A stretch of DNA of 64,000 bases. It comes from Aliidiomarina sedimenti (GTDB taxonomy: Bacteria; Pseudomonadota; Gammaproteobacteria; Enterobacterales; Alteromonadaceae). Position numbers and translations under genes: made by a program. Every line of letters begins with the position of its first letter. Position 1 is the stretch's first letter. Below are positions 6,213 through 26,079 of this stretch, one piece after another. The stretch is taken from the NCBI RefSeq assembly GCF_003986955.1, contig NZ_PIPN01000003.1, positions 186,001 through 250,000 of the forward strand, written 5' to 3'. The notes beneath the pieces are model-generated. The model was not told the DNA's origin. It was given only the letters and a program-made list of their open reading frames with translations, and searched no databases.

Positions 6213-6282
6213 GTTTCTGCTCTACCTTTCTTACTCCCCCCATCAAAAACTTTCTGTATTAACGTCCGTCCATCTCCAAAGT

Positions 6283-6346: not shown

Positions 6347-7093
6347 ATGGATAACATGCTCTACATTGCCATGAGTGGCGCCAAAGAAGACATGAACGCG
6401 GTTGCGGTGCGGGCTAATAACCTGGCCAACGTGAATACCACCGCGTTTAAAGCCGATTTGGCTCAAGCCCGTGCCATGCAAGCGTATGGCGAAGGCCATC
6501 CGAGCCGGGTGTTTTCACTGACCGAGCGTGCCGGGCAAAACTTTGCCGCAGGTGCACTAAGAACGACCGGTCGTGACCTCGATGTTGCCGTAGTAGGCCA
6601 GGGCTGGCTGCATATTCTCGATGAGAATGGTGAAGAAGCTATGACCCGCAACGGTAATCTGGAAATTAGCCAGGGCGGCATGTTGCAGACCTCCAGTGGT
6701 GAGCCGGTTATGGGCAATGCAGGTCCCATCTTTATTCCATTGCCGATCACGGACATTACGATCGGCAAAGACGGCACGATTTCCGTGCAGCCTCAGGGCG
6801 CTCCATCTCAGGTACGTGAAGAAATTGACCGTATCAGTGTGGTAAACCCGCCAAATGGCAACGTTGAAAAAGGTACCGATGGCCTGTTCAGAATGAAAAA
6901 TGGCGAAGAATTGCCGTTGCCGGAATTTGATGCCCAGCTTGAAGTTGGTGCACTCGAAGGCAGTAACGTGAATGCCATCGAAGAAATGACTCAGATGATT
7001 GCGCTGCATCGTAACTACGAGCTCAGCGTGAAAATGATGAAGGCTGCTGAAGAAAACGACGAGCGGCAAGAACAACTCTTACGTATTTATTAA
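6347..7093 (+). CDS. flgF: Flagellar basal-body rod protein FlgF
   Basis: FlgF is a proximal rod protein. The start MDNMLYIAMSGAKEDM is the FlgF signature, followed by NNLANVNTTAFKAD (about 28-41) and a C-terminal GSNVNAIEEMTQMIALHRNY. At 248 residues the length is normal. It opens a second transcription unit (flgFGH) behind a sigma-54 promoter; flgG follows after 22 nt. Confidence 0.96.
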   Translation: MDNMLYIAMSGAKEDMNAVAVRANNLANVNTTAFKADLAQARAMQAYGEGHPSRVFSLTERAGQNFAAGALRTTGRDLDVAVVGQGWLHILDENGEEAMTRNGNLEISQGGMLQTSSGEPVMGNAGPIFIPLPITDITIGKDGTISVQPQGAPSQVREEIDRISVVNPPNGNVEKGTDGLFRMKNGEELPLPEFDAQLEVGALEGSNVNAIEEMTQMIALHRNYELSVKMMKAAEENDERQEQLLRIY

Positions 7094-14859: not shown

Positions 14860-15684
14860 ATGTCACTATATGTAAACACTAACGTATCATCGTTGAATGC
14901 TCAGCGTCAGTTAATGACTTCAGGTAACGGTCTTGACACTGCATTTGAGCGTCTTTCATCTGGCTACCGTATCAACAGCGCTGCTGACGATGCTGCCGGT
15001 CTGCAAATCACTAACCGCATGACGTCGCAAATCAACGGCCTGAACATGGCTGTGCGTAACGCCAATGACGGTATCTCAGTAGCACAAACTGCTGAAGGTG
15101 CGTTGCAGGAAACTACCAACATGCTACAACGTATGCGTGAGCTGGTGGTTCAGGCTGATAACGGTATCAACAACGCAGAAGACCTGGCTGCAATCCAGCA
15201 GGAAATCGGTGAGTTGAACGACGAAATCGACCGTATCGCGGACACTACTCAGTTCTCAGGTCGTAACATTCTGGACGGTACTTTTGCCGGGGTTGATTTC
15301 CTGGTTGGTTCACAAGGTCTGGCTGAAGAGAAAGTAACTATCGATATCCCGGCTCGTATGGGTGCGGCTGAATTAACCTCAGCGACAGTCGATGTTGCAG
15401 CAAACGACTCAGACGTAGATTTAGCGTCTATTGACGCTGCGATTGAAAGCGTTGGCACACTTCGCTCTGAATTGGGTGCTAGCCAAAACCGTTTCCAGTC
15501 AACCATTTCTAACCTGAGCAATATTTCTGAGAACGTTTCAGCAGCTCGCTCACGTATCATGGATACTGACTTCGCAGCAGAAACTGCACAGCTGACTAAG
15601 TTCCAGATCACTCAGCAAGCCAGTACCAGCATCCTGGGACAAGCGAATCAGCGTCCTCAGGCAGCGTTGTCACTGCTGGGTTAA
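14860..15684 (+). CDS. fliC: Flagellin 1
   Basis: Filament subunit, exported by the flagellar apparatus. The 274-residue protein has the conserved D0/D1 N-terminus (NTNVSSLNAQRQLMTSGNGL; RINSAADDAAGLQITNRM; NDGISVAQTAEGALQE), a very short central region (about residues 160-200) and the conserved C-terminus (SRIMDTDFAAETAQLTKFQI, then QQASTSILGQANQRPQAALS). The short centre means a filament with little D2/D3. It is the first of five tandem flagellin genes; own sigma-28 promoter and terminator, ribosome binding site GAGGAG. Confidence 0.97.
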   Translation: MSLYVNTNVSSLNAQRQLMTSGNGLDTAFERLSSGYRINSAADDAAGLQITNRMTSQINGLNMAVRNANDGISVAQTAEGALQETTNMLQRMRELVVQADNGINNAEDLAAIQQEIGELNDEIDRIADTTQFSGRNILDGTFAGVDFLVGSQGLAEEKVTIDIPARMGAAELTSATVDVAANDSDVDLASIDAAIESVGTLRSELGASQNRFQSTISNLSNISENVSAARSRIMDTDFAAETAQLTKFQITQQASTSILGQANQRPQAALSLLG

Positions 15685-15699
15685 TTCCCTCCGAACGCT

Positions 15700-15727
15700 T
15701 AAAAAGCCGGGCTTGCCCGGCTTTTTT
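15700..15727 (+). terminator. Intrinsic terminator after flagellin gene 1
   Basis: AAAAAGCCGGGC and GCCCGGCTTTTTT with a 2-nt spacer; strong hairpin and T run. Confidence 0.9.
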
Positions 15728-15815
15728 GTGTCTGTTGCAAAAAAAATTAAAACGCTATAGCGCACGCATGCCAGGGGTTATAGCAATTTGCTAAAGAAAA
15801 ATAGCAACGCAGCGT

Positions 15816-15842
15816 TAAAGTCTGCTGCCAGATCGCCGTTAG
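15816..15842 (+). promoter_or_regulatory. Sigma-28 promoter of flagellin gene 2
   Basis: TAAAGTCT, 11-nt spacer, GCCGTTAG; 61 nt before the ATG at 15903. Confidence 0.8.
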
Positions 15843-15902
15843 CAGGGGTAAGCATGGTGCGATGCGCCATTTAAAAAAGCGACAGCAAGCAGGAGTTTGA
15901 TT

Positions 15903-16727
15903 ATGTCTTTATATGTAAATACCAATGTTTCGTCACTGAACGCTCAGCGTCAGTTAATGACATCAGGCAACGGCCTGGACACCGCGTTTGAGCGTCTGTC
16001 TTCTGGCTCTCGCATTAACAGTGCAGCCGACGATGCCGCCGGTTTGCAGATCACCAACCGGATGACCTCGCAGGTAAACGGTCTGAATATGGCAGTGCGT
16101 AATGCCAATGATGGTATCTCAGTTGCACAGACCGCTGAAGGTGCATTGCAGGAAACCACGAACATGCTACAGCGTATGCGTGAGCTGGTGGTTCAGGCTG
16201 ACAACGGGGTTAATAACGCGGAAGATCTGACAGCGATCCAACAGGAAATTGGCGAGCTCAACGATGAAATCGACCGTATCGCCGATACTACCCAGTTCTC
16301 TGGCCGCAACATTCTCGATGGAAGCTTTACTGCTGTTGACTTTTTGGTTGGTAGCCAGGGTCTGGCAGACGAAAAAGTAACGATCGATATTGCCACTCGT
16401 ATGGGCGCTGCAGAACTTACTTCTGGGACTGTGGATGTAACCGCGAACGATTCTGAAACGGATCTGGGTGCGATTGATACAGCAATTGAAACTGTGGGCA
16501 CCACACGTTCAGAGCTAGGTGCTTCACAGAACCGTTTTCAGTCAACCATTTCTAACCTGAGCAACATCTCTGAAAACGTATCAGCAGCTCGTTCACGGAT
16601 TATGGATACAGACTATGCTGCCGAAACAGCACAGCTGACTAAGTTCCAGATCACTCAGCAGGCCAGTACCAGCATTTTGGGTCAGGCAAACCAACGTCCT
16701 CAGGCAGCGTTGTCACTGTTGGGTTAA
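15903..16727 (+). CDS. fliC: Flagellin 2
   Basis: Filament subunit, 274 residues from the ATG at 15903 (AGGAG 7 nt upstream; an upstream TTG would add only two residues). Nearly identical to flagellin 1 over the first 150 and last 80 residues, with small changes (SSGSRINSA instead of SSGYRINSA; SQVNGLN instead of SQINGLN) and most differences in the central 160-200 region. It has its own sigma-28 promoter. The high similarity argues for recent tandem duplication or continuing gene conversion. Confidence 0.97.
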   Translation: MSLYVNTNVSSLNAQRQLMTSGNGLDTAFERLSSGSRINSAADDAAGLQITNRMTSQVNGLNMAVRNANDGISVAQTAEGALQETTNMLQRMRELVVQADNGVNNAEDLTAIQQEIGELNDEIDRIADTTQFSGRNILDGSFTAVDFLVGSQGLADEKVTIDIATRMGAAELTSGTVDVTANDSETDLGAIDTAIETVGTTRSELGASQNRFQSTISNLSNISENVSAARSRIMDTDYAAETAQLTKFQITQQASTSILGQANQRPQAALSLLG

Positions 16728-16739
16728 GTACCCGGCTTC

Positions 16740-16780
16740 AACAACGGTTGGCCCGGAGGGGCGCTGGGCCGGCTGTTGTT
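16740..16780 (+). other. 15-bp hairpin in 3' region of flagellin gene 2
   Basis: Arms at 16740-16754 and 16766-16780 pair over 15 positions with three G-U pairs when read on the plus strand; the 11-nt loop is GGAGGGGCGCT. It sits between the stop codon and the terminator, so it should be in the mRNA 3' UTR. Arm length equals that of the hairpins at 17.9 and 19.2 kb, but the loop is only loosely similar. Confidence 0.5.
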
Positions 16781-16786
16781 ACTCTG

Positions 16787-16814
16787 CAAAACCAGGCGAA
16801 AGCCTGGTTTTCTT
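16787..16814 (+). terminator. Intrinsic terminator after flagellin gene 2
   Basis: AAACCAGGC, GAAA tetraloop, GCCTGGTTT then TTC. The stem is nearly the same as in the terminator of flagellin gene 3. Confidence 0.85.
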
Positions 16815-16864
16815 GTATCTGGGCGGCGTTATCAGGCGAAAGCAATAAAAATAGCAATTTCTAC

Positions 16865-16891
16865 TAAAGAAAAAAATCATTCCACCGATAA
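16865..16891 (+). promoter_or_regulatory. Sigma-28 promoter of flagellin gene 3
   Basis: TAAAGAAA, 11-nt spacer, ACCGATAA; 96 nt before the start, giving a longer leader than genes 1 and 2. Confidence 0.8.
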
Positions 16892-16986
16892 CTTAAGTAA
16901 CCAAGGCGCACTGCAGACAAGGCATTGACGCTTTAACTAACAATGAACAAGCGGCTAGATTGAGTCGACTATAAAGGAGACGCCCC

Positions 16987-17814
16987 ATGTCTTTATATGT
17001 AAACACCAACGTATCATCTTTAAATGCTCAGCGTCAGTTAATGACGTCAGGCAACGGCCTGGACACTGCCTTTGAGCGTCTGTCTTCTGGCTACCGTATT
17101 AACAGTGCGGCGGATGATGCTGCTGGTCTGCAAATCACTAACCGCATGACCTCGCAAATCAATGGCCTGAACATGGCTGTGCGTAACGCCAATGACGGCA
17201 TTTCTGTAGCTCAGACCGCCGAAGGTGCGTTGCAGGAAAGTACCAACATGATGCAGCGGATGCGCGAACTGGTTATCCAGGCAGATAACGGTATTAACAA
17301 CGATGAAGATCTCGCTGCTATTAACCAGGAATTGGTTGAGTTGCAGGATGAAATCGACCGTATCGCGGATACTACGCAGTTTTCTGGCCGCAACATTCTT
17401 GATGGTTCTTTTACTGCAGTAGATTTCCTGGTTGGTAGCCAGGGCTTAGCGGAAGAAAAGGTTACCATCGATATTCCTGACCGCATGGGCTCAGCAGAGT
17501 TGTTTGGTGGCGCGGTAGCTGTTGCAGCAGGATTCGACGCTGAAACGGTATTAGGCCAAATTGATGACGGTATCGAAAGCGTGGGCGAATTGCGTTCAGA
17601 ACTGGGTGCTTCGCAAAACCGTTTTCAGTCAACCATTTCTAACCTGAGCAATATCTCTGAAAACGTGTCAGCAGCTCGCTCACGTATTATGGATACTGAC
17701 TTTGCAGCGGAAACAGCTCAACTGACTAAGTTCCAGATTACGCAACAGGCCAGCACCAGTATTCTTGGACAGGCGAACCAGCGTCCTCAAGCGGCACTCT
17801 CGCTACTGGGCTAA
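16987..17814 (+). CDS. fliC: Flagellin 3
   Basis: Filament subunit of 275 residues with the same conserved N- and C-terminal helices as flagellins 1 and 2. It differs at ESTNMMQRMRELVIQ (about 89-103), INQELVELQDEIDR and the central stretch (SAELFGGAVAVAAGFDAETV). The leader carries a strong AAAGGAG (16973-16979), complementary to the loop of the putative minus-strand sRNA at 19.2 kb. Own promoter and terminator. Confidence 0.97.
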   Translation: MSLYVNTNVSSLNAQRQLMTSGNGLDTAFERLSSGYRINSAADDAAGLQITNRMTSQINGLNMAVRNANDGISVAQTAEGALQESTNMMQRMRELVIQADNGINNDEDLAAINQELVELQDEIDRIADTTQFSGRNILDGSFTAVDFLVGSQGLAEEKVTIDIPDRMGSAELFGGAVAVAAGFDAETVLGQIDDGIESVGELRSELGASQNRFQSTISNLSNISENVSAARSRIMDTDFAAETAQLTKFQITQQASTSILGQANQRPQAALSLLG

Positions 17815-17860
17815 TCCAACTTCCAGCGCTCCTGGCTTTGCCAGCTGCGCGGGGGAAAGA

Positions 17861-17908
17861 GCCAGCCACTCAGGGAAAGGGGAATTTGGGGCACCCTGTT
17901 TGGCTGGC
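17861..17908. other. Hairpin related to the 19.2-kb sRNA hairpins, 3' of flagellin gene 3
   Basis: Two 15-nt arms (17861-17875 and 17894-17908) pair as 8 + 5 bp around a 2x2 internal mismatch and enclose the 18-nt loop AAAGGGGAATTTGGGGCA. The 19.2-kb loops start AAAGG and end GGGGCA too, and GGCAGAC just after the right arm is shared. Here the hairpin lies between the flagellin 3 stop and its terminator, so it should be transcribed on the plus strand as 3' UTR. With the terminator and promoter it accounts for this 376-bp spacer; I see no gene. Confidence 0.55.
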
Positions 17909-17917
17909 AGACCTCAT

Positions 17918-17946
17918 CAAAAACCAGGCGTTTGCCTGGTTTTTTC
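17918..17946 (+). terminator. Intrinsic terminator after flagellin gene 3
   Basis: AAAAACCAGGC, GTTT loop, GCCTGGTTTTTT. It is A-rich on the left, so probably bidirectional. Confidence 0.88.
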
Positions 17947-18073
17947 TTATCTGGATTTTCATTTTTTCGTTATCCCTGGCTTTTTCTGACCTTTCTTATC
18001 CTTCTGTAAGCCCCGTGCGCTATGGGGCTTTAAAGGAAAATACGTTTTTTTCAAAAAAAACGTAAAATAATCC

Positions 18074-18100
18074 TAAAGGTTCTTTCTCTTAGGCCGAAAC
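18074..18100 (+). promoter_or_regulatory. Sigma-28 promoter of flagellin gene 4
   Basis: TAAAGGTT, 11-nt spacer, GCCGAAAC; 91 nt before the start. Confidence 0.75.
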
Positions 18101-18190
18101 CCTTGATGTAGGGGAAGGTTTTGTCACTTGTGGTTGGGTGGCATAACACAATAACTAGGCAACAGGTGTAAACCTGTAAAGGAGAATAGT

Positions 18191-19015
18191 ATGTCACTAT
18201 ACGTGAATACGAACGTGTCGTCTTTGAACGCACAACGTCAACTTATGACTTCAGGCAGCGGCCTGGATACCGCTTTCGAGCGTCTTTCATCTGGCTTCCG
18301 TATCAACAGCGCTGCTGATGACGCGGCAGGTCTGCAAATCACTAACCGTATGACCTCGCAAATCAATGGCCTGAACATGGCTGTTCGTAACGCGAACGAC
18401 GGTATCTCTGTTGCACAAACCGCTGAAGGCGCCATGCAGGAATCTTCAAACATGCTGCAACGTATGCGTGAACTGGTTGTTCAGGCAGACAACGGTATCA
18501 ACAACGACGAAGATCTGGCAGCTATCAACCAGGAAATTGGTGAGCTGGTTGATGAAATCGATCGTATCGCTGGTACTACTCAGTTTTCTGGTCAGAACCT
18601 GTTAGACGGTAACTTTGACGCTGACTTCCTGGTTGGTTCACAAGGTTTAGCTGACGAGAAAGTAGGTATCGCGATTGGTAACATGGACGCGGCTACTCTG
18701 GGTGTTGACGCTGCAACTATTACCGTAGCAGCTGGTTTCGACTCAGAAACTTTCTTAACTGCCATTGATGGCGCTATCGAAACTGTAGGTACTGCACGTT
18801 CTGAACTGGGTGCTACTCAGAACCGTTTCCAGTCTACTATTTCTAACTTAAGCAACATCTCTGAAAACGTTTCTGGTGCTCGTTCACGCATCATGGACAC
18901 TGACTTTGCTGCAGAAACTGCGAACTTAACTAAGTTCCAGATCACCCAGCAAGCAAGTACTGCTATCTTGGGTCAAGCGAACGCTCGTCCTCAAGCGGCA
19001 TTGTCACTGCTGTAA
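18191..19015 (+). CDS. fliC: Flagellin 4
   Basis: Filament subunit of 274 residues. The conserved N- and C-terminal regions match flagellins 1-3, but it ends ALSLL without the final Gly, has SGSGL and SSGFRINSA near the start, and QFSGQNLLDGNFDADFLVG in place of the RNILDG version. Codons look strongly optimised (many GGT, GCT, CGT, AAC, CTG), suggesting it may be a major subunit; this is inference. Ribosome binding site AAAGGAG (18178-18184). Confidence 0.97.
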   Translation: MSLYVNTNVSSLNAQRQLMTSGSGLDTAFERLSSGFRINSAADDAAGLQITNRMTSQINGLNMAVRNANDGISVAQTAEGAMQESSNMLQRMRELVVQADNGINNDEDLAAINQEIGELVDEIDRIAGTTQFSGQNLLDGNFDADFLVGSQGLADEKVGIAIGNMDAATLGVDAATITVAAGFDSETFLTAIDGAIETVGTARSELGATQNRFQSTISNLSNISENVSGARSRIMDTDFAAETANLTKFQITQQASTAILGQANARPQAALSLL

Positions 19016-19047
19016 TTCCATACCCCTACTTACAGCCAGTAACGCAG

Positions 19048-19071
19048 AAGCCAGGCATATGCCTGGCTTTT
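19048..19071 (+). terminator. Intrinsic terminator after flagellin gene 4
   Basis: AAGCCAGGC, short AT centre, GCCTGGCTT then TT. The hairpins at 19.15-19.27 kb lie beyond it, so they should not be part of the flagellin 4 transcript. Confidence 0.8.
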
Positions 19072-19136
19072 GTTATTTCTGGGGCTGAATAATTTGACTG
19101 AGCTGGAAGCCAGTTAAGAGAAATTGGTAAACGCTG

Positions 19137-19292
19137 GGCAAAAAAGAGTCGACTGAACTGGAAAAGGAGGTTGTAGGGGGGCATCCAGTTCAGCCGACAG
19201 ACAGTCATTGTGAAAGAACCGGCCGAGTTGGAAAAGGAGGTTGTAGGGGGGCATCCAACTCAGCCGGCAGACAGTCGTTAAACCGTTTCACG
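19137..19292 (-). ncRNA. Putative flagellar small RNA with two anti-Shine-Dalgarno hairpin loops
   Basis: Read on the minus strand. Hairpin A uses 19267-19254 with 19232-19219 (14 bp) and hairpin B uses 19198-19184 with 19162-19148 (15 bp). Both expose the same 21-nt loop, which starts UGCCCCCCUACAA and ends CCUCCUUU, so it contains the anti-Shine-Dalgarno core. The stems differ at three paired positions changed on both sides, and each has one further G-U pair that would be an A-C mismatch on the plus strand. Hairpin B is followed by TCTTTTTTG, an intrinsic terminator. A sigma-54-type promoter at 19303-19318 predicts a start near 19292 and an RNA of about 155 nt. I know no named family for it; CCUCC-loop sRNAs of alphaproteobacteria are an analogy only. 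Confidence 0.65.
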
Positions 19293-19302
19293 ATTAGGGT
19301 AA

Positions 19303-19318
19303 TGCAGAGCTTGTGCCA
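19303..19318 (-). promoter_or_regulatory. Sigma-54-type promoter driving the putative sRNA
   Basis: The minus strand reads TTGGCACAAGCTCTGCATT: -24 GG and -12 GC exactly 10 nt apart. Compare TTGGCACAGCTCGTGCATT before flgF. It points leftwards into the tandem hairpins and there is no coding gene for it to drive. Confidence 0.65.
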
Positions 19319-19321
19319 ACT

Positions 19322-19594
19322 TTTTTAAAATACCGATAAATAATGCAGAAAGTTAAAAAAGTGGCCGCTCAGCCAGTTTTATTCACCAGCCTGCCCCGGT
19401 TAGTAAACGCGTTAACGACTAAAAGACCCCTGATTATTTCGGCAAAGCACTGGCTCTGGAATTGCCCAAAGGAATGAATTCGCCTGAAAGCGGCGACTTC
19501 TAGCCAGAGCGGCGAACTTTGCCGCTTTGTGGCAGCGCATGTGCTTCAATTCGTATAGTTTAGAATAAATTAATGTAGAAAGCACAAAAATCAC
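19322..19594. other. Flagellin 4-5 spacer, remaining part without recognised gene
   Basis: No credible coding region. It holds a weak plus-strand sigma-54-like sequence TGGCTCTGGAATTGCC (19451-19466, GG and GC 10 nt apart, one mismatch in the -24 box) and, downstream, repeated GCGGC/GCCGC words (about 19492-19536) that can fold. Neither is strong enough to call. Confidence 0.3.
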
Positions 19595-19621
19595 TCAAGC
19601 TTCATTTAGTTTGGCCGATAA
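19595..19621 (+). promoter_or_regulatory. Sigma-28 promoter of flagellin gene 5
   Basis: TCAAGCTT, 11-nt spacer, then a perfect GCCGATAA. The -35 half is weaker (TCAA for TAAA). 85 nt before the start. Confidence 0.75.
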
Positions 19622-19705
19622 GTAACTGAGGTGGGGTAGTCCGTGTCAGGTTTCGCGGGCTAAACAGGTTGTGAATCGGGCTCTGCCCGTTTATCGAGGT
19701 GTCGT

Positions 19706-20548
19706 ATGGCACTCTATGTAAATACTAACATTGCGTCATTGACTGCGCAGCGTCAGCTAATGACGTCGTCGTTTGGGTTAAACCAGACGTTCCAGCGTTT
19801 GTCATCGGGCTTTCGGATCAATAGTGCGGCCGATGACGCAGCCGGATTGCAGATAAGCACCCGGATGACGTCGCAGATAACCGGTCTGAACCAGGCAGTT
19901 CGCAATGCCAATGACGGTATTTCGGTGGCGCAGGTAGCAGAAGGCGCGATGCAGGAAGTCGGCAACATGCTACAACGCATGCGCGAACTGGTTATTCAGT
20001 CAGACAATGGCATCAACGCCGCGGAAGACAAAGTAGCGATTCAGCGTGAGATTACGGCCTTGCAGACAGAAGTCGATCGCATCGCAGAGACCACTGCGTT
20101 TTCCGGACGAAAACTGCTGGATGGCAGTCTTGCCACCGACGGGCTGAACTTTTTAGTCGGCTCAACTGGGCATGCGGCCGAGCGGATTAGCCTGACTATT
20201 GCGGGCGCAAGCACCACGGATCTGGCTATTACCCAGGCTGAAGTTGACGTGCGCGAAGGGTCGGGACTGTCGGCTGAGGATATGCTGCAGTCACTGGATA
20301 ACGCCATTCGCGATCTTGGCCGCTCACGTTCTGGTCTTGGGGCGAAACAGAACCGGATGCAGTCGACAGTTGCGAACTTAAGCAATGTAGCAGAGAACGT
20401 CAGTGCTGCCCGGTCGCGGATTATGGATACCGACTTTGCCGCAGAAACGGCAAAACTTGTCCGCTTTCAGATCATGCAACAGGCAACTATTGCCATCCTG
20501 GGGCAGGCAAATCAAAGTCCATCGCTGGTTTTGTCACTTTTAGGGTAG
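19706..20548 (+). CDS. Flagellin 5 (divergent paralogue)
   Basis: A flagellin of 280 residues with the same architecture but clearly diverged from the other four: it begins MALYVNTNIASLTAQRQLM, has SSFGLNQTFQRLSSGF, ISTRMTSQITGLNQ and KVAIQREITALQTEVDR, and ends QANQSPSLVLSLLG instead of QANQRPQAALSLLG. Codon use is more GC-rich and less biased than in gene 4, which suggests lower expression. It could be a minor filament subunit with a positional or stage-specific role, like distinct flagellins in Vibrio or Shewanella; that is inference. Its start has the weaker site GAGGTG. Confidence 0.93.
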   Translation: MALYVNTNIASLTAQRQLMTSSFGLNQTFQRLSSGFRINSAADDAAGLQISTRMTSQITGLNQAVRNANDGISVAQVAEGAMQEVGNMLQRMRELVIQSDNGINAAEDKVAIQREITALQTEVDRIAETTAFSGRKLLDGSLATDGLNFLVGSTGHAAERISLTIAGASTTDLAITQAEVDVREGSGLSAEDMLQSLDNAIRDLGRSRSGLGAKQNRMQSTVANLSNVAENVSAARSRIMDTDFAAETAKLVRFQIMQQATIAILGQANQSPSLVLSLLG

Positions 20549-20590
20549 TGTGGTTGCAACACTAGCTGGCGAAAAAATAGACTTTAGGGT

Positions 20591-20618
20591 TAAAGTAAAA
20601 CGGTGAACTGGCCGATAG
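20591..20618 (+). promoter_or_regulatory. Possible sigma-28 promoter of flaG
   Basis: TAAAGTAA, 12-nt spacer, GCCGATAG; one base longer than the optimum spacing. 65 nt before flaG. Confidence 0.6.
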
Positions 20619-20683
20619 TTATATAGGGGCATACCTGAATCAGCTGTACAGGTAGCAAAAAAAGGTAGGTTGGAGAGTAGGTT

Positions 20684-21133
20684 ATGAGTATAGAATCGAT
20701 GAATTCAGACTCACTGCCACGTATAGACAGCAGTGAGCAAAACCGGACTCAGGCGCAGCAGACACAGGCGCAGGAATCGAACGAATTGAATCCGCGTACG
20801 ATAGACAGCGTACGCGAGGCCATTCGGGAGCAGCGCACAGAGAATTCAGAGCAGCGCGAAATGAGCCAGGACGAATTGTCAAAAACGGCAGAACAATTTG
20901 TCGAAGTGGCGCAAACTTTGAATAGAGAACTGCAGTTTTCGGTGAACAAAGACATTGACGAAACCGTGATTACGGTGATTGACCGCAATACGGGTGAAAC
21001 CGTAAGGCAGATACCGTCGGAAGAAATTGTGCGCTTAGCAGAGCGGGTGCGGGAACTGAGTGCCAGTCAAGGGCAAAGTACCCAACCTGAAATTGACAGC
21101 GCGACAGGCTTTCTAGTCGATAGCCTGGTTTAA
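20684..21133 (+). CDS. flaG: FlaG family flagellar protein
   Basis: FlaG proteins influence filament length in polar flagella; the mechanism is not settled. The 149-residue protein has a low-complexity Gln/Glu/Ser-rich first half and the conserved FlaG core in the second: LQFSVNKDIDETVITVIDRN followed by GETVRQIPSEEIVRLAERV (about residues 85-125). It stands between flagellin 5 and fliD, the normal polar-flagellum position. A possible sigma-28 promoter precedes it. Confidence 0.93.
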   Translation: MSIESMNSDSLPRIDSSEQNRTQAQQTQAQESNELNPRTIDSVREAIREQRTENSEQREMSQDELSKTAEQFVEVAQTLNRELQFSVNKDIDETVITVIDRNTGETVRQIPSEEIVRLAERVRELSASQGQSTQPEIDSATGFLVDSLV

Positions 21134-21164
21134 TGTATTTGAACTATAAAAGGGAGATTTTCCC

Positions 21165-22547
21165 ATGGCAATGACATCATTAGGTGTAGGTTCAGGGATT
21201 GACCTGGACGGCATGGTTCGTCAGTTAGTGCAGTTAGAGCGTCAGGGCAAGGAATCGCGCCTGGTGGAACGTACCAGAGACGCAGAAAGTAATATTTCTG
21301 CAGTGGGTAAGCTGAAAAGCTCAATGACCGAACTGGTTGATGCGTTAGATAGCTTAAGTCGTGAGCGCGACTTAAACGCACGCTCTGCCACGATCGCCGG
21401 TCAGGATGAAGACAACCCGTTCTTTACCGCGAATGCGAACCAACGTGCTGCGACCAGTAACTACAATATTCAGATAAACCAGGTGGCCTCGGGGTCACGG
21501 ATGCAATCAGCATCGTTTGCTAATTCGACGGATCCACAGGCAACGGGCGCGGGCTCGCTGACCTTCAGTGCCGGTGGCGATAACACCTTTGATGTCGATG
21601 TTGAAGACGGCGCTAGCCTGAGTGATATCGCGGATGCGATCAATCGTTCAGACAGTAATTTTGGCGTGACTGCCAGTGTTATTAATACAGGCACCGAAAG
21701 CTTTTTGGTGTTTGATTCTACTGTCACTGGCGATGGCAATGATTTGTCGATTACGGCCAACGGCGTCGGCGGCCTGGATGGTTTAACCGATGCCAATCTG
21801 ACTGAGCGTAAGGCGGCGCAGGGCGCTATCATGACCGTTGATGGCATTGAAGTGCGCAGCGACTCGAATACCTTTGATAACGCCATTGAAGGGGTCTCTA
21901 TTACCGCGGAGCGTGAAACCGGTGTGGATGATGAACCCAAGCTTACGGTAGAGGTCGACGAGGAAAGCGTTCGTGGCATGGTGGATGATTTCGTATCGGC
22001 GTATAACGGTCTGGTCGATGAAATTGCCAAGCTGACTGAATATGTGCCTGAGGGCAAGAGTGGCCCATTGATTGGTGACTCTATGGTGCGCTCGATTCGT
22101 AGCCGTATGGCGTCGATTATCTCCACCCCGATAGAGGGCGGCGGTGATTTCAATAGCCTTTATCAGATGGGTATTGTAACTGACAACGATGGTAAGATTG
22201 AGTTTGACCCGCGCAATATTGGCGGTGGTACCGGTACTCAGCGTTTCGATCAATCATTGGCGCAGAACTTTGACGGCATGGTAGAGCTGCTGTCCGGGGA
22301 AAACGGTATTGCTACTCAGTTGCGTGACGTCACTCGTGAATATACCCAGTCGCAAGGCTTACTCGATGGTCGTACAAATGTTTACGAAAGTCAGAAGCAG
22401 ATGGTCGACAATGAACGAGAGCAGTTTGAGCGCTATATGGAGCAGTATGAATCCAACCTGCGCCAGCGTTTTGGCTCGCTTGATCAGAACATTGCACGGA
22501 TGTCCTCCAGTCTGAACTTTCTGACCCAGTGGGGCGGTGGCGGCTAA
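21165..22547 (+). CDS. fliD: Flagellar filament cap protein FliD (HAP2)
   Basis: FliD caps the filament tip and folds exported flagellin. The 460-residue protein starts with the FliD signature (SLGVGSGIDLDGMVRQLVQL), has the middle D2/D3 region with NYNIQINQVASG, and ends with the helical C-terminus (FERYMEQYESNLRQRFGSLD). GGGAG precedes the ATG. It follows flaG after 31 nt and leads into fliS. Confidence 0.96.
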   Translation: MAMTSLGVGSGIDLDGMVRQLVQLERQGKESRLVERTRDAESNISAVGKLKSSMTELVDALDSLSRERDLNARSATIAGQDEDNPFFTANANQRAATSNYNIQINQVASGSRMQSASFANSTDPQATGAGSLTFSAGGDNTFDVDVEDGASLSDIADAINRSDSNFGVTASVINTGTESFLVFDSTVTGDGNDLSITANGVGGLDGLTDANLTERKAAQGAIMTVDGIEVRSDSNTFDNAIEGVSITAERETGVDDEPKLTVEVDEESVRGMVDDFVSAYNGLVDEIAKLTEYVPEGKSGPLIGDSMVRSIRSRMASIISTPIEGGGDFNSLYQMGIVTDNDGKIEFDPRNIGGGTGTQRFDQSLAQNFDGMVELLSGENGIATQLRDVTREYTQSQGLLDGRTNVYESQKQMVDNEREQFERYMEQYESNLRQRFGSLDQNIARMSSSLNFLTQWGGGG

Positions 22548-23555: not shown

Positions 23556-24776
23556 ATGAGCACCTTATTAGGCTACCTTTCTCAGTTTACCGACTCTAAG
23601 CAACCGCGGGTCCATAATTACGGTCCCAACGTCCAAAGCACCCAGACTTTCAAGGCTGTGGCGAAACAGGCCAAAGCCTTGCGCAATCAGTATGCCGCAG
23701 TCGCAGGCTCACGTCTGGCACTCACCCTGACTGCGTCGGCAGATGCATTGGTGCACATGGTGGCTCTGGATGGGTTCGTCGCTGAATTGATTTTGCTGCC
23801 GGTGGATCACGCGGTTCCGAAAGGCTGTCATTTCCATATTTCTGAGCGTGGTCAGCTGCGCGATCTCAACGACTATAGCAGCGACAATCTGCCAGTGGTG
23901 ACCCAGTGGGGACTGCTGGATGAGCACGGGGACGTGATTAGCTATTCGCTGGATGAACTGGCGAACAATGACCTGGTACAGAAAGATTCCATAGAGCACC
24001 CCCTGCGCTGGGGCGTCATGCAGGAACCGGCTGAACTGGCTGGGCTTCTGGTGTGGTTACGCGCGCTCAGGCATGGCGAAGACATCGTGCTGGCACAAGC
24101 GGACACGTTAAATGCGCTGGCTGATATGTTTATCCATGCTGAAGTCAATGCAATTGCGGCACCGCCTCGCTTATGGCGAAACCTGACCGCGTCGGAAGAA
24201 ATCACCCGCCTGGCGCTGCACCTTGCCTTAGTCAATGGTGGTATCGTTGATGCGGCCACGTTGCAGCGGCTGGAAAACTTATTCCCGGACGCCATGCTGG
24301 CGCACAGCTTCTCCAACACCGGGGCCGGGGTGAGCTGGCTGATTGATGACCGTGAACCCGGACTACCGGTCTCACTTTTTGCTGCCAACGACGATGGCCT
24401 TAAGCTGGAAATCAATGATGCCCAGCTGGATATTCGCTTTACCGGCAGCGGCGCTACTATCCATACCGGCTACCTCGCGGTTAAGCAGGATCAACGGGTA
24501 TTTTTACTGGGCCATCAGGACAACCAACTCATGGTAGGCGGCCGCGGCGTGCAGCCGGAAGTGGTTGAGCAGGCGTTATTGCAGGTGGTCGGCGTGGCTG
24601 ACGTACAGGCATCGAGTATGCCTAACCCGGTACTCGGTGAACTGGTGCGGGTGGATGTGCTGGCGCCATCACAACGGACTGTCGCGGAACGTAAGCTATT
24701 TAAACGGACGTTGCAGGAACATTGCCGGGAATGTCTTGAACCCTGGCAGCGGCCGGCACGTTACTATTTCCATTAA
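23556..24776 (+). CDS. Degenerate ANL-superfamily (AMP-binding-like) protein
   Basis: A 406-residue protein that follows the fold order of adenylate-forming enzymes without their catalytic motifs. LTLTASADALVHMVALDGF (about 50-68) resembles the N-terminal core; LALVNGGIVDAATLQRLENL and FSNTGAGVSWL (about 225-265) occupy the place of the conserved YGxTE motif; GYLAVKQDQRVFLLGHQDN and VGGRGVQPEVVEQALL (about 308-342) match the hinge and C-terminal subdomain. No Ser/Thr/Gly-rich P-loop is present, the motif Glu is Gly, and the C-terminal catalytic Lys segment is missing. At about 400 residues it is shorter than the usual 500 or more. It may bind a ligand or protein without adenylating it. No function assigned. 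Confidence 0.6.
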   Translation: MSTLLGYLSQFTDSKQPRVHNYGPNVQSTQTFKAVAKQAKALRNQYAAVAGSRLALTLTASADALVHMVALDGFVAELILLPVDHAVPKGCHFHISERGQLRDLNDYSSDNLPVVTQWGLLDEHGDVISYSLDELANNDLVQKDSIEHPLRWGVMQEPAELAGLLVWLRALRHGEDIVLAQADTLNALADMFIHAEVNAIAAPPRLWRNLTASEEITRLALHLALVNGGIVDAATLQRLENLFPDAMLAHSFSNTGAGVSWLIDDREPGLPVSLFAANDDGLKLEINDAQLDIRFTGSGATIHTGYLAVKQDQRVFLLGHQDNQLMVGGRGVQPEVVEQALLQVVGVADVQASSMPNPVLGELVRVDVLAPSQRTVAERKLFKRTLQEHCRECLEPWQRPARYYFH

Positions 24777-24828
24777 GCGTTAATTTTTCTTAAACTATCA
24801 GCTTTCCATTAATCCCGGAGTGTCCTTA

Positions 24829-26079
24829 ATGTCCCACAGTACGGCGCAGCTGCTTGAGCGTTTTTCACAACTGGCAGAGCCGGATACTTTCGATAGCCAT
24901 CAATTGCCCGATTATCAGCTTGGCTCTGAGGACACTGACGCGGCGGTGGAGCTGATCGGGACCGATTATTTTATCCTGCATCCTCTGGCGGCGACTCATG
25001 CACTGCTGGCGTTGCTGCAATGTCACGATGATAGTTTGTTCGCCCGGGCGCTAGGGGCTGCGGATGAAGGCTTATTGCATGCGCAACAAGAGTACATCGT
25101 CAGTTATGCGCTGCCGTACTGTGACGCCCCGTTAATTGGCTTGCTTGATGCGCTGATGGGGAATAGCGAGCACCGCGATGAGCGGCGTGTCTTTGCCGCC
25201 TGGTTGTTGCAGCAGTATGCAGCGTTGCATCCGGAATACTATGGTCGCGTGGCCAAAGTGGTCGGTGCCCGGCTGCAGGACTTTACGGCTAACCCGGCAG
25301 CGGTGAATGGGGTGCTGGTTGAAACCTGTGTCAGTATGCAGGCCGAAGAGCTACTTCCGCTTATTCAACGTGCTTATCAGCAAGAGTTGGTGACAAGTGC
25401 TGAATACACCAGCGCCGCCGCCGTTGAAGAGGCGTTGCTAACGCCGGAAACGGCGTTTGAAGCTGGCCTCGAACAGTTTATGCATACCAAAGAACTGGAT
25501 GAGATCCGGCAGGCACTGGAAACGAAGTTTCAGCGACGCCAGGGGAGCGGTTTACGCACCATGGCGGAACTCGATGGATTGCTTTATGCGCTGGCACTGA
25601 GCCCAACGCCAGTCGCCCGCTCGTTATGGCTGGCCCTGTTGCAGGACGAAACGCTGGCAGATATCAGCGAGGACATCTGCGAAGAGAGCGTTGACCAGCT
25701 GACCACCTACTATTCGGAAGTAAAAGACTCGCTGCTAGCTGGCGAAGCTGCCCCTTATTATGAATCCGTTGCGGTCGAGAACCTCAACAGTTTAGTGCCG
25801 TGGGCGGGTGGTTTCCTGTCTGGCTTTAGCTTGTGGACGGAAAGTGACCGCCTGAGCACGGAAAAGGCAGATGCGACTCAGGAACTGCTTGAGTTCCTGC
25901 ATGCGATTGTCGCCGACAAGCCTCTGCCGGAGCAGTACCAGGCCCTGGCGCACAGTGATTACCATATGATTATGCAGCTAATGTTGCAGCGCGCCTTCGA
26001 GGAAACTCAACAGAGCAGTGACGAGCTGACCCTGGATGACGATTCGTTGCAGGACTTTTTTGAGGGGTTTGACCGTTGA
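24829..26079 (+). CDS. UPF0149 (YecA/YgfB)-like protein with N-terminal helical region
   Basis: A 416-residue acidic protein. The ATG at 24829 has CGGAG 8 nt upstream (a GTG at 24820 is less likely). The C-terminal half resembles UPF0149: TMAELDGLLYALALSPTPVA (about 244-263) and VPWAGGFLSGFSLWTE (about 323-338), then an acidic tail (LTLDDDSLQDFFEGFDR). The N-terminal 230 residues look like helical repeats (HEAT-like; DUF1186 is possible). No catalytic or metal-binding motif was seen; the Cys/His-rich SEC-C tail of YecA is absent. The next gene overlaps its stop, so they form an operon. Function unknown. Confidence 0.55.
   Translation: MSHSTAQLLERFSQLAEPDTFDSHQLPDYQLGSEDTDAAVELIGTDYFILHPLAATHALLALLQCHDDSLFARALGAADEGLLHAQQEYIVSYALPYCDAPLIGLLDALMGNSEHRDERRVFAAWLLQQYAALHPEYYGRVAKVVGARLQDFTANPAAVNGVLVETCVSMQAEELLPLIQRAYQQELVTSAEYTSAAAVEEALLTPETAFEAGLEQFMHTKELDEIRQALETKFQRRQGSGLRTMAELDGLLYALALSPTPVARSLWLALLQDETLADISEDICEESVDQLTTYYSEVKDSLLAGEAAPYYESVAVENLNSLVPWAGGFLSGFSLWTESDRLSTEKADATQELLEFLHAIVADKPLPEQYQALAHSDYHMIMQLMLQRAFEETQQSSDELTLDDDSLQDFFEGFDR

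Follow-up and report, generated by a model that had tools for sequence, protein, structure and literature searches.

The Helicobacter sRNA RepG sets a C-rich loop against a G-rich leader, and RNAs of the CopA/CopT type engage one another by loop-loop pairing; for the RNAs described here this is a resemblance only. In Campylobacter, the sRNAs CjNC1 and CjNC4 belong to the sigma-28 class and are predicted to act on sigma-54 5'UTRs (PMC4626219); they would be the same as CJnc10 and CJnc170, the latter named FlmR, as we infer from a second report (PMC11187230). A further Campylobacter sRNA, the RpoN-dependent FlmE (CJnc230), is concerned with flagellar timing; for the most part it arises by processing of the flgE mRNA, and the genes it represses are flgM and Cj1387c (PMC11187230). 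E. coli has the sigma-28-driven flagellar sRNAs UhpU, MotR, FliX and FlgO, which are enriched with Hfq, FliX being derived from the 3'UTR of fliC (PMC10578931), and Campylobacter CJnc190 is aimed at a G-rich ribosome binding site and antagonised by CJnc180, a cis-encoded antisense RNA (PMC8687705).

Here we describe a candidate flagellar sRNA, element I, and a diverged opposite-strand paralog, element II, in a 64,000-nucleotide stretch of the Aliidiomarina sedimenti genome (contig NZ_PIPN01000003.1, positions 186,001 to 250,000; hereafter the window). The model that we favour, and consider reasonably likely, is of a sigma-54-timed sRNA that has sigma-28 flagellin mRNAs as its pairing partners and a sponge in a flagellin 3'UTR to titrate it. 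Like CjNC1 and CjNC4, element I would be a flagellar sRNA under one flagellar sigma factor with predicted targets under the other, but the direction is reversed, with a sigma-54 sRNA on sigma-28 leaders, and a sponge figures in our model only, as far as the cited part of that study extends (PMC4626219). Element I shares with FlmE an RpoN-linked place in flagellar timing, here a predicted one, but differs in having its own sigma-54-type promoter and in lying antisense beside flagellin genes (PMC11187230). The origin of FliX in a flagellin 3'UTR recalls the place of element II, but the E. coli sRNAs are sigma-28-driven and Hfq-enriched, and an opposite-strand paralog, which is a feature of this locus, goes unmentioned in the cited part of that report (PMC10578931). 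The antagonist of CJnc190 is encoded in cis at the same locus, whereas the antagonist predicted here lies apart from the sRNA locus, as a diverged copy within the 3'UTR of a different gene (PMC8687705). These comparisons were made by description, and for sequence by an Rfam scan of the kind that the first-pass annotation of this DNA had proposed: Rfam 15 gives no match in the window at gathering score, and a scan of 17800-19400 at E<=5 returns five chance-level matches, all far below gathering scores. An earlier description of the element I RNA was not found in the literature searched, which covered little of the subscription literature.

By Pfam, the genes at 14860-22547 are five flagellins, FlaG and FliD. 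Element I (19137..19292, minus strand) lies between flagellin genes 4 and 5, is carried by 11 genomes in all, that of the window included, and in the window takes a tandem form. Hairpin A with its short flanks occupies 19212..19278 and hairpin B 19142..19208, after which there is a T-run; the two are 70 nt apart, and each presents the same 21-nt loop, UGCCCCCCUACAACCUCCUUU (19233..19253 in A and 19163..19183 in B), on a 15-bp stem. Re-reading of the sequence bears out the first-pass annotation on the strand, place and spacing of the hairpins and the identity of their loops. They score 92.7 bits (A) and 90.3 bits (B) against R1, a covariance model built from nine hairpins of eight genomes, these two among them and G010 excluded. 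Comparison of the 15 pairs of the two stems recovers the three two-sided changes already claimed (C-G/U-A, G-C/A-U and U-A/C-G) and adds three one-sided changes. The single non-Watson-Crick pair assigned to each stem needs amending, because hairpin A has two, its outermost G-U having been omitted, and hairpin B has one, but all of these are G-U on the minus strand and A-C on the plus strand, as had been stated. Predicted folding energy is -63.4 kcal/mol for the minus strand (z -6.73, none of 200 shuffles as good) and -55.2 kcal/mol for the plus strand (z -1.77, 10 of 200 as good). Both copies of the loop contain ACCUCCUU, which we take to be the letters of the 16S rRNA anti-Shine-Dalgarno tail, so that Shine-Dalgarno sequences in general might be bound too. 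A terminator-like hairpin found by the terminator scan (19044..19073, plus strand) lies between flagellin 4 and the sRNA locus.

Upstream of element I, TTGGCACAAGCTCTGCA (19303..19319 on the minus strand, starting at 19319) has the GG-N10-GC pattern of a sigma-54-type promoter, and the similar site TTGGCACAGCTCGTGCA, at 6282 on the plus strand, precedes an ORF at 6347 that encodes an FlgE/F/G-type rod protein by Pfam; this fits flgF, whose promoter the element I promoter had been said to resemble. The same expression finds nine sites over the whole window. Transcription from sigma-54 promoters starts 12 nt past the GC, which puts the predicted start at about 19292 and, with the end at the T-run, the sRNA at about 155 nt, in agreement with the size proposed earlier. 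The T-run into which hairpin B had been reported to lead is present (CTCTTTTTTG), and single-copy relatives mostly have TTCTTT(T)C at this place; the terminator scan accepts loops of 3-8 nt only, leaving hairpins with 21-nt loops outside its reach. Sites with TTGGCA(C/T) in which a spacer of exactly ten bases separates GG from GC, all of them predictions as are the start positions, stand upstream of each of the 11 element I loci, ten found by script and that of locus L064 (TTGGCACGTGTTTCGC) by eye. In the ten script-found loci the distance from site to stem varies from 17 to 70 nt, which suggests that the hairpin rather than a 5' tail is kept. By eye, no terminator is seen between flagellin and sRNA in G007, G011 and G012, where a flagellin transcript may also extend through the sRNA locus and so be antisense to the sRNA in cis.

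Loss of stem pairing in relatives had been named as evidence that would count against element I. Instead, in 11 hairpins from ten genomes (G010 being left out as near-identical to the window) all 165 of 165 stem cells are paired on the minus strand, kept so by compensatory change, compared with 16-52% in slid-alignment controls. Two-sided change is found at nine of the 15 pairs and the covariation score is reached by none of 500 shuffles, and the non-Watson-Crick pairs on the minus strand comprise 26 G-U and no A-C, although the sequences are related by descent and neither count is a set of independent trials. This G-U pattern identifies the minus strand as the RNA, and nine of nine hairpins also fold better on that strand. 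The loop varies in two genomes only, by an additional C in G013 and by two changes in that of G016. A structured, minus-strand flagellar RNA with a sigma-54-type promoter and an anti-Shine-Dalgarno-like loop is thus strongly supported as a prediction, and element I is very probably a real sRNA. What does not extend beyond the window genome and G010, whose loci are near-identical, is the double hairpin of the original proposal; the nine other carriers have a single one.

The first-pass annotation overlooked both the match of the loop to flagellin leaders and the paralog in a flagellin 3'UTR. Among all 7-mers in a set of 44 leaders, all of flagellins, GTAGGGG ranks first (17 leaders, 10 of 11 carrier genomes), a place it shares with TAGGGGA, which overlaps it; the sigma-28 -10 element CCGATAA ranks lower (13 leaders, nine genomes). 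It is the exact complement of CCCCUAC in the sRNA loop, as AAAGGAG, the flagellin Shine-Dalgarno sequence (14 leaders, nine genomes), is of CUCCUUU, a match expected of any anti-Shine-Dalgarno sequence. Among the 15 heptamers of the loop, these two and CCCUACA, which overlaps the first, stand out; the others match 0-3 leaders. With two flaG leaders added, those of G007 and G016, chosen knowing that the site is present, GTAGGGG reaches 19 of 46 leaders and all 11 genomes; FlaG identity is confirmed in both. In G016 the site is in the flaG leader and in no flagellin leader, and nine of the 11 flaG leaders are without it. In the 11 carrier regions the flagellin-sense strand has GTAGGGG at these 19 leader sites, 13 times in sRNA loci and nowhere else, with four occurrences on the opposite strand.

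In the window the predicted target gene is flagellin 4 (18191..19015, plus strand, by Pfam), which lies between element II and the sRNA. Its sigma-28 -10 element, CCGAAA, and the predicted main target site, GTAGGGG at 18108-18114, together span 18094..18114, the latter at about +2 of the mRNA, and its Shine-Dalgarno sequence, AAAGGAG, is at 18178..18184. The single occurrence of GTAGGGGA in the window, at this leader, equals the chance expectation, and the weight therefore rests on genome comparison. Predicted openness of GTAGGGG within its leader is uneven (0.12-0.83). The start of the flagellin 4 leader, CCCTTGATGTAGGGG (18100-18114), is able to form a small hairpin enclosing the target site; by eye this hairpin is not kept in all leaders.

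On these comparisons the strongest predicted target is the 5'-end GUAGGGG of sigma-28 flagellin mRNAs (in two genomes flaG mRNAs), with the flagellin AAAGGAG second, and pairing of the sRNA with flagellin leaders is likely. This refines the earlier suggestion that the loops can cover ribosome binding sites, which as a general class are not the strongest predicted target. Co-variation between loop and leader cannot be read because the loops are near-invariant, save for a hint in G016, where the loop is one C shorter (ACCUCUU) and flaG has AAGAGGU about 20 nt before its start codon, a single possible compensatory case.

The outcome of such pairing could be repression or activation. We lean slightly towards repression of flagellin. 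Activation, in which pairing at the 5' end would shield the mRNA from decay or bridge the 5' end and the ribosome binding site into a translatable form, is unlikely, though an appreciable chance attaches to it: the most conserved complementarity is off the ribosome binding site, 65-86 nt before the start codon (offsets below 60, including one of 59 nt in G013, are based on wrong start codons and are excluded), but the complementarity of CUCCUUU to the AAAGGAG Shine-Dalgarno sequence in nine of 11 genomes is better suited to repression.

GTAGGGG could also be a feature of the sigma-28 promoter at the DNA level, or of the initial transcript, in which case its match to the loop would be due to chance and the sRNA would have other targets or pair with element II alone. 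The site starts 14-15 nt past the CCGA (or TCGATA) of the -10 element in 16 of its 19 occurrences, and 14 nt from a diverged -10, by eye, in the other three; with the usual sigma-28 geometry this is about +2 of the transcript, and so fixed a spacing is what a promoter feature would have. Chance matches are moreover not negligible for a C-rich loop, dinucleotide shuffles of which contain CCCCTAC in 6% of cases, CTCCTTT in 1.1% and both in 0.06%. We nonetheless regard this explanation as rather improbable, because the site is present where the sRNA is, and is absent from the flagellin-sense strand of seven genus non-carrier regions and from the flagellin leaders of six outgroup regions. A genome-wide search for the -10 element followed by GTAGGGG gives 13 matches in nine of nine carriers searched, all within the flagellin cluster, and one match, outside the flagellin cluster, in seven non-carriers; a backward-control pattern gives four matches in 16 genomes. 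Family-wide, 111 of 395 genomes have some match, and backward-control matches look about as common, which is an uncounted impression.

The comparison covered seven of the eight genus non-carriers, in which both the hairpin elements and the site are lacking. They are weak controls since their flagellar cluster is a different one, FlhA (Pfam FHIPEP) being 53-55% identical to that of the window in the seven searched and 78-100% identical in carriers. A better control is provided by the six outgroup flagellin regions, whose flagellins are 62-69% identical: none has element I or II above noise or a GTAGGGG leader, and the sole GTAGGGG in them is inside a flagellin gene.

Element II was first found by R1 as a diverged hairpin at 17917-17855 on the minus strand, and in other genomes. 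In the window (17855..17915) it scores 41.4 bits with R1 on the minus strand and 78.4 bits on the plus strand with R2, a model built with this copy. It follows flagellin 3 (16987..17814, plus strand, by Pfam, with a sigma-28-like promoter TAAAG...CCGATAA by eye), and an intrinsic-terminator-like hairpin at 17919..17944, found on the plus strand by the terminator scan, places it between stop codon and terminator, where the flagellin 3 mRNA would carry it in its 3'UTR. Nine of the 11 carriers have it, with none detected in G005 and G016, and all nine copies lie in the same context, with a flagellin stop codon on the 5' side and a hairpin and T-run on the 3' side (by scan in the window, by eye in the others). 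At L078, L077, L064, L069 and L075, further small hairpins seem by eye to flank element II, GGGGAAACCCC-like before it and CTCTCTCGTCAGAGA-like after it.

A second minus-strand sRNA was considered for element II and is overturned by its G-U pattern, which is that of the plus strand: the non-standard pairs in eight distinct copies (the duplicate in G010 dropped) comprise 19 G-U, no A-C and four others. All nine copies fold better on the plus strand, the margin being just 0.4 kcal/mol in G000 and G010, and in the window the strands fold almost equally (-25.1 vs -24.7). On the plus strand 96.7% of 120 cells are paired, with two-sided change at eight of the 15 pairs. Out of 500 shuffles none attains the covariation score, but 238 attain the number of further pair types, which is therefore no higher than in shuffled sequence. 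One ancestral DNA hairpin thus appears to have been selected as an antisense RNA in element I and as a sense 3'UTR structure in element II.

In most copies the element II loop reads AAAGG(A/G)G...GGGGCR and complements both ends of the sRNA loop. Complementary runs of 7-9 nt with the 3' part of the sRNA loop are present in all eight distinct copies, and at the other end runs of 6-7 nt in seven of eight and of 5 nt in G007 (by eye). Shared ancestry of the two elements means that this complementarity is partly inherited; eight of eight distinct loops keep it. Unconstrained duplex energies of element II with the sRNA loop are -17.9 to -29.3 kcal/mol. In G011, G012, A. celeris, B3213 and G007, GGAG or GAG is predicted to pair inside the element II loop, which would compete with pairing to the sRNA. 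Gene order follows the same arrangement in most carriers: in eight of the nine genomes with element II the next flagellin on its 3' side has a GTAGGGG leader, and in those eight the sRNA lies antisense beyond that flagellin or its tandem copies. The next flagellin in G011, a partial match at L078 (G011:C1:128216-128575) that adjoins the sRNA, is broken by two in-frame TAG codons. That element II, a predicted sponge or target of the sRNA loop, acts on the sRNA is somewhat better than an even guess.

It is improbable that the system is instead of the Csr type, with the GGGGA leader or the loop of element II serving as a CsrA binding site and the sRNA merely countering that binding. Csr/Rsm sRNAs carry several GGA motifs in hairpin loops, and GGA is present in the element II loop of seven of the eight distinct copies and in GUAGGGGA leaders, but the element I loop has none, and the G013 element II loop (AAAGGGGGUC...) is without GGA and yet keeps its complementarity to the sRNA loop.

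In our favoured model of an sRNA and its sponge, RNA polymerase with sigma-54 would make element I as a trans-acting sRNA in the hook and basal-body stage. Through CCCCUAC(A) its loop would pair with the (U)GUAGGGG that sits right at the 5' end of sigma-28 flagellin mRNAs (in two genomes flaG mRNAs), and through CUCCUUU it could pair with the AAAGGAG Shine-Dalgarno sequence of many of these mRNAs. The effect, we think, would most likely be to delay flagellin translation until the late stage of expression takes over. The upstream flagellin mRNA carries element II in its 3'UTR, with a loop complementary to the sRNA loop at both ends, so that as its level increases with sigma-28 transcription it would titrate the sRNA away by loop-loop pairing. 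Structures, strands, promoter pattern, complementarities and occurrence come from sequence comparison, and from these we infer transcription, pairing in the cell, repression and sponge action. More tentatively, and with somewhat less than even confidence, we propose a timing circuit in which one DNA element is read on both strands, the antisense sigma-54 copy giving a trans-acting sRNA with a bipartite loop, for the 5' end and the Shine-Dalgarno sequence, and the sense 3'UTR copy giving a kissing-loop sponge, such that the earliest of the late flagellin messages would free those that follow. If true, the two flagellar sigma-factor stages would be linked by RNA in the direction opposite to the Campylobacter case, a tandem-duplicated gene cluster could yield an sRNA plus its own sponge through strand switching, and a single short RNA with its two mapped sites would give direct experimental access to the post-transcriptional timing of early and late flagellar stages.

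A DNA search of 17 genus genomes matches element I in nine, the window genome included, and R1, a covariance-model search of the sort first proposed for these hairpins, has strong matches in the same nine. Across 196 family and 394 order genomes, with 26 and 13 candidates per genome scored, so that weak distant relatives could be missed, R1 gives strong matches in Aliidiomarina only. With laxer filters over 38 relatives, ten genomes have matches at E<=0.1, namely the nine carriers and G219 (0.084). Weak R1 matches in G003, G004 and G000:C5 were rejected as noise, there being no full loop in the 500 nt read at each; further weak matches are three to R1 in G006 and two to R2, in G006 and G015. 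All strong matches are at flagellin genes, and elsewhere in the genus genomes matches are at noise level. A reading of the two elements as repeated extragenic hairpins with no regulatory role, which their common ancestry and the tandem copy in two genomes might suggest, is therefore very doubtful, and the near-invariant loop, strand-specific stems and conserved sigma-54 site speak against it as well. A small protein encoded on the minus strand is most improbable, for although ORFs of 22, 28, 46 and 60 codons on that strand overlap the locus, the loop is longer by one in G013 and shorter by one in G016, and variation in the stems is compensatory.

A scan for the loop pattern in the contigs of 84,980 species returns seven stretches, with titles naming Aliidiomarina (five) or an 'Idiomarina sp.' bin (two), and adds Aliidiomarina sp. 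B3213 (L064) and A. celeris (L069) as carriers, for a total of 11. Past the flagellin cluster of the window, two genes at 23556-26079 have weak or uncharacterised Pfam matches only (AMP-binding_C below cut-off; UPF0149). In seven of 16 genus genomes searched, FlhA is 53-55% and the flagellins are about 50% identical to those of the window, a pattern that replacement of the entire flagellar cluster would give (L125-L131 vs L116-L124; L079-L085).
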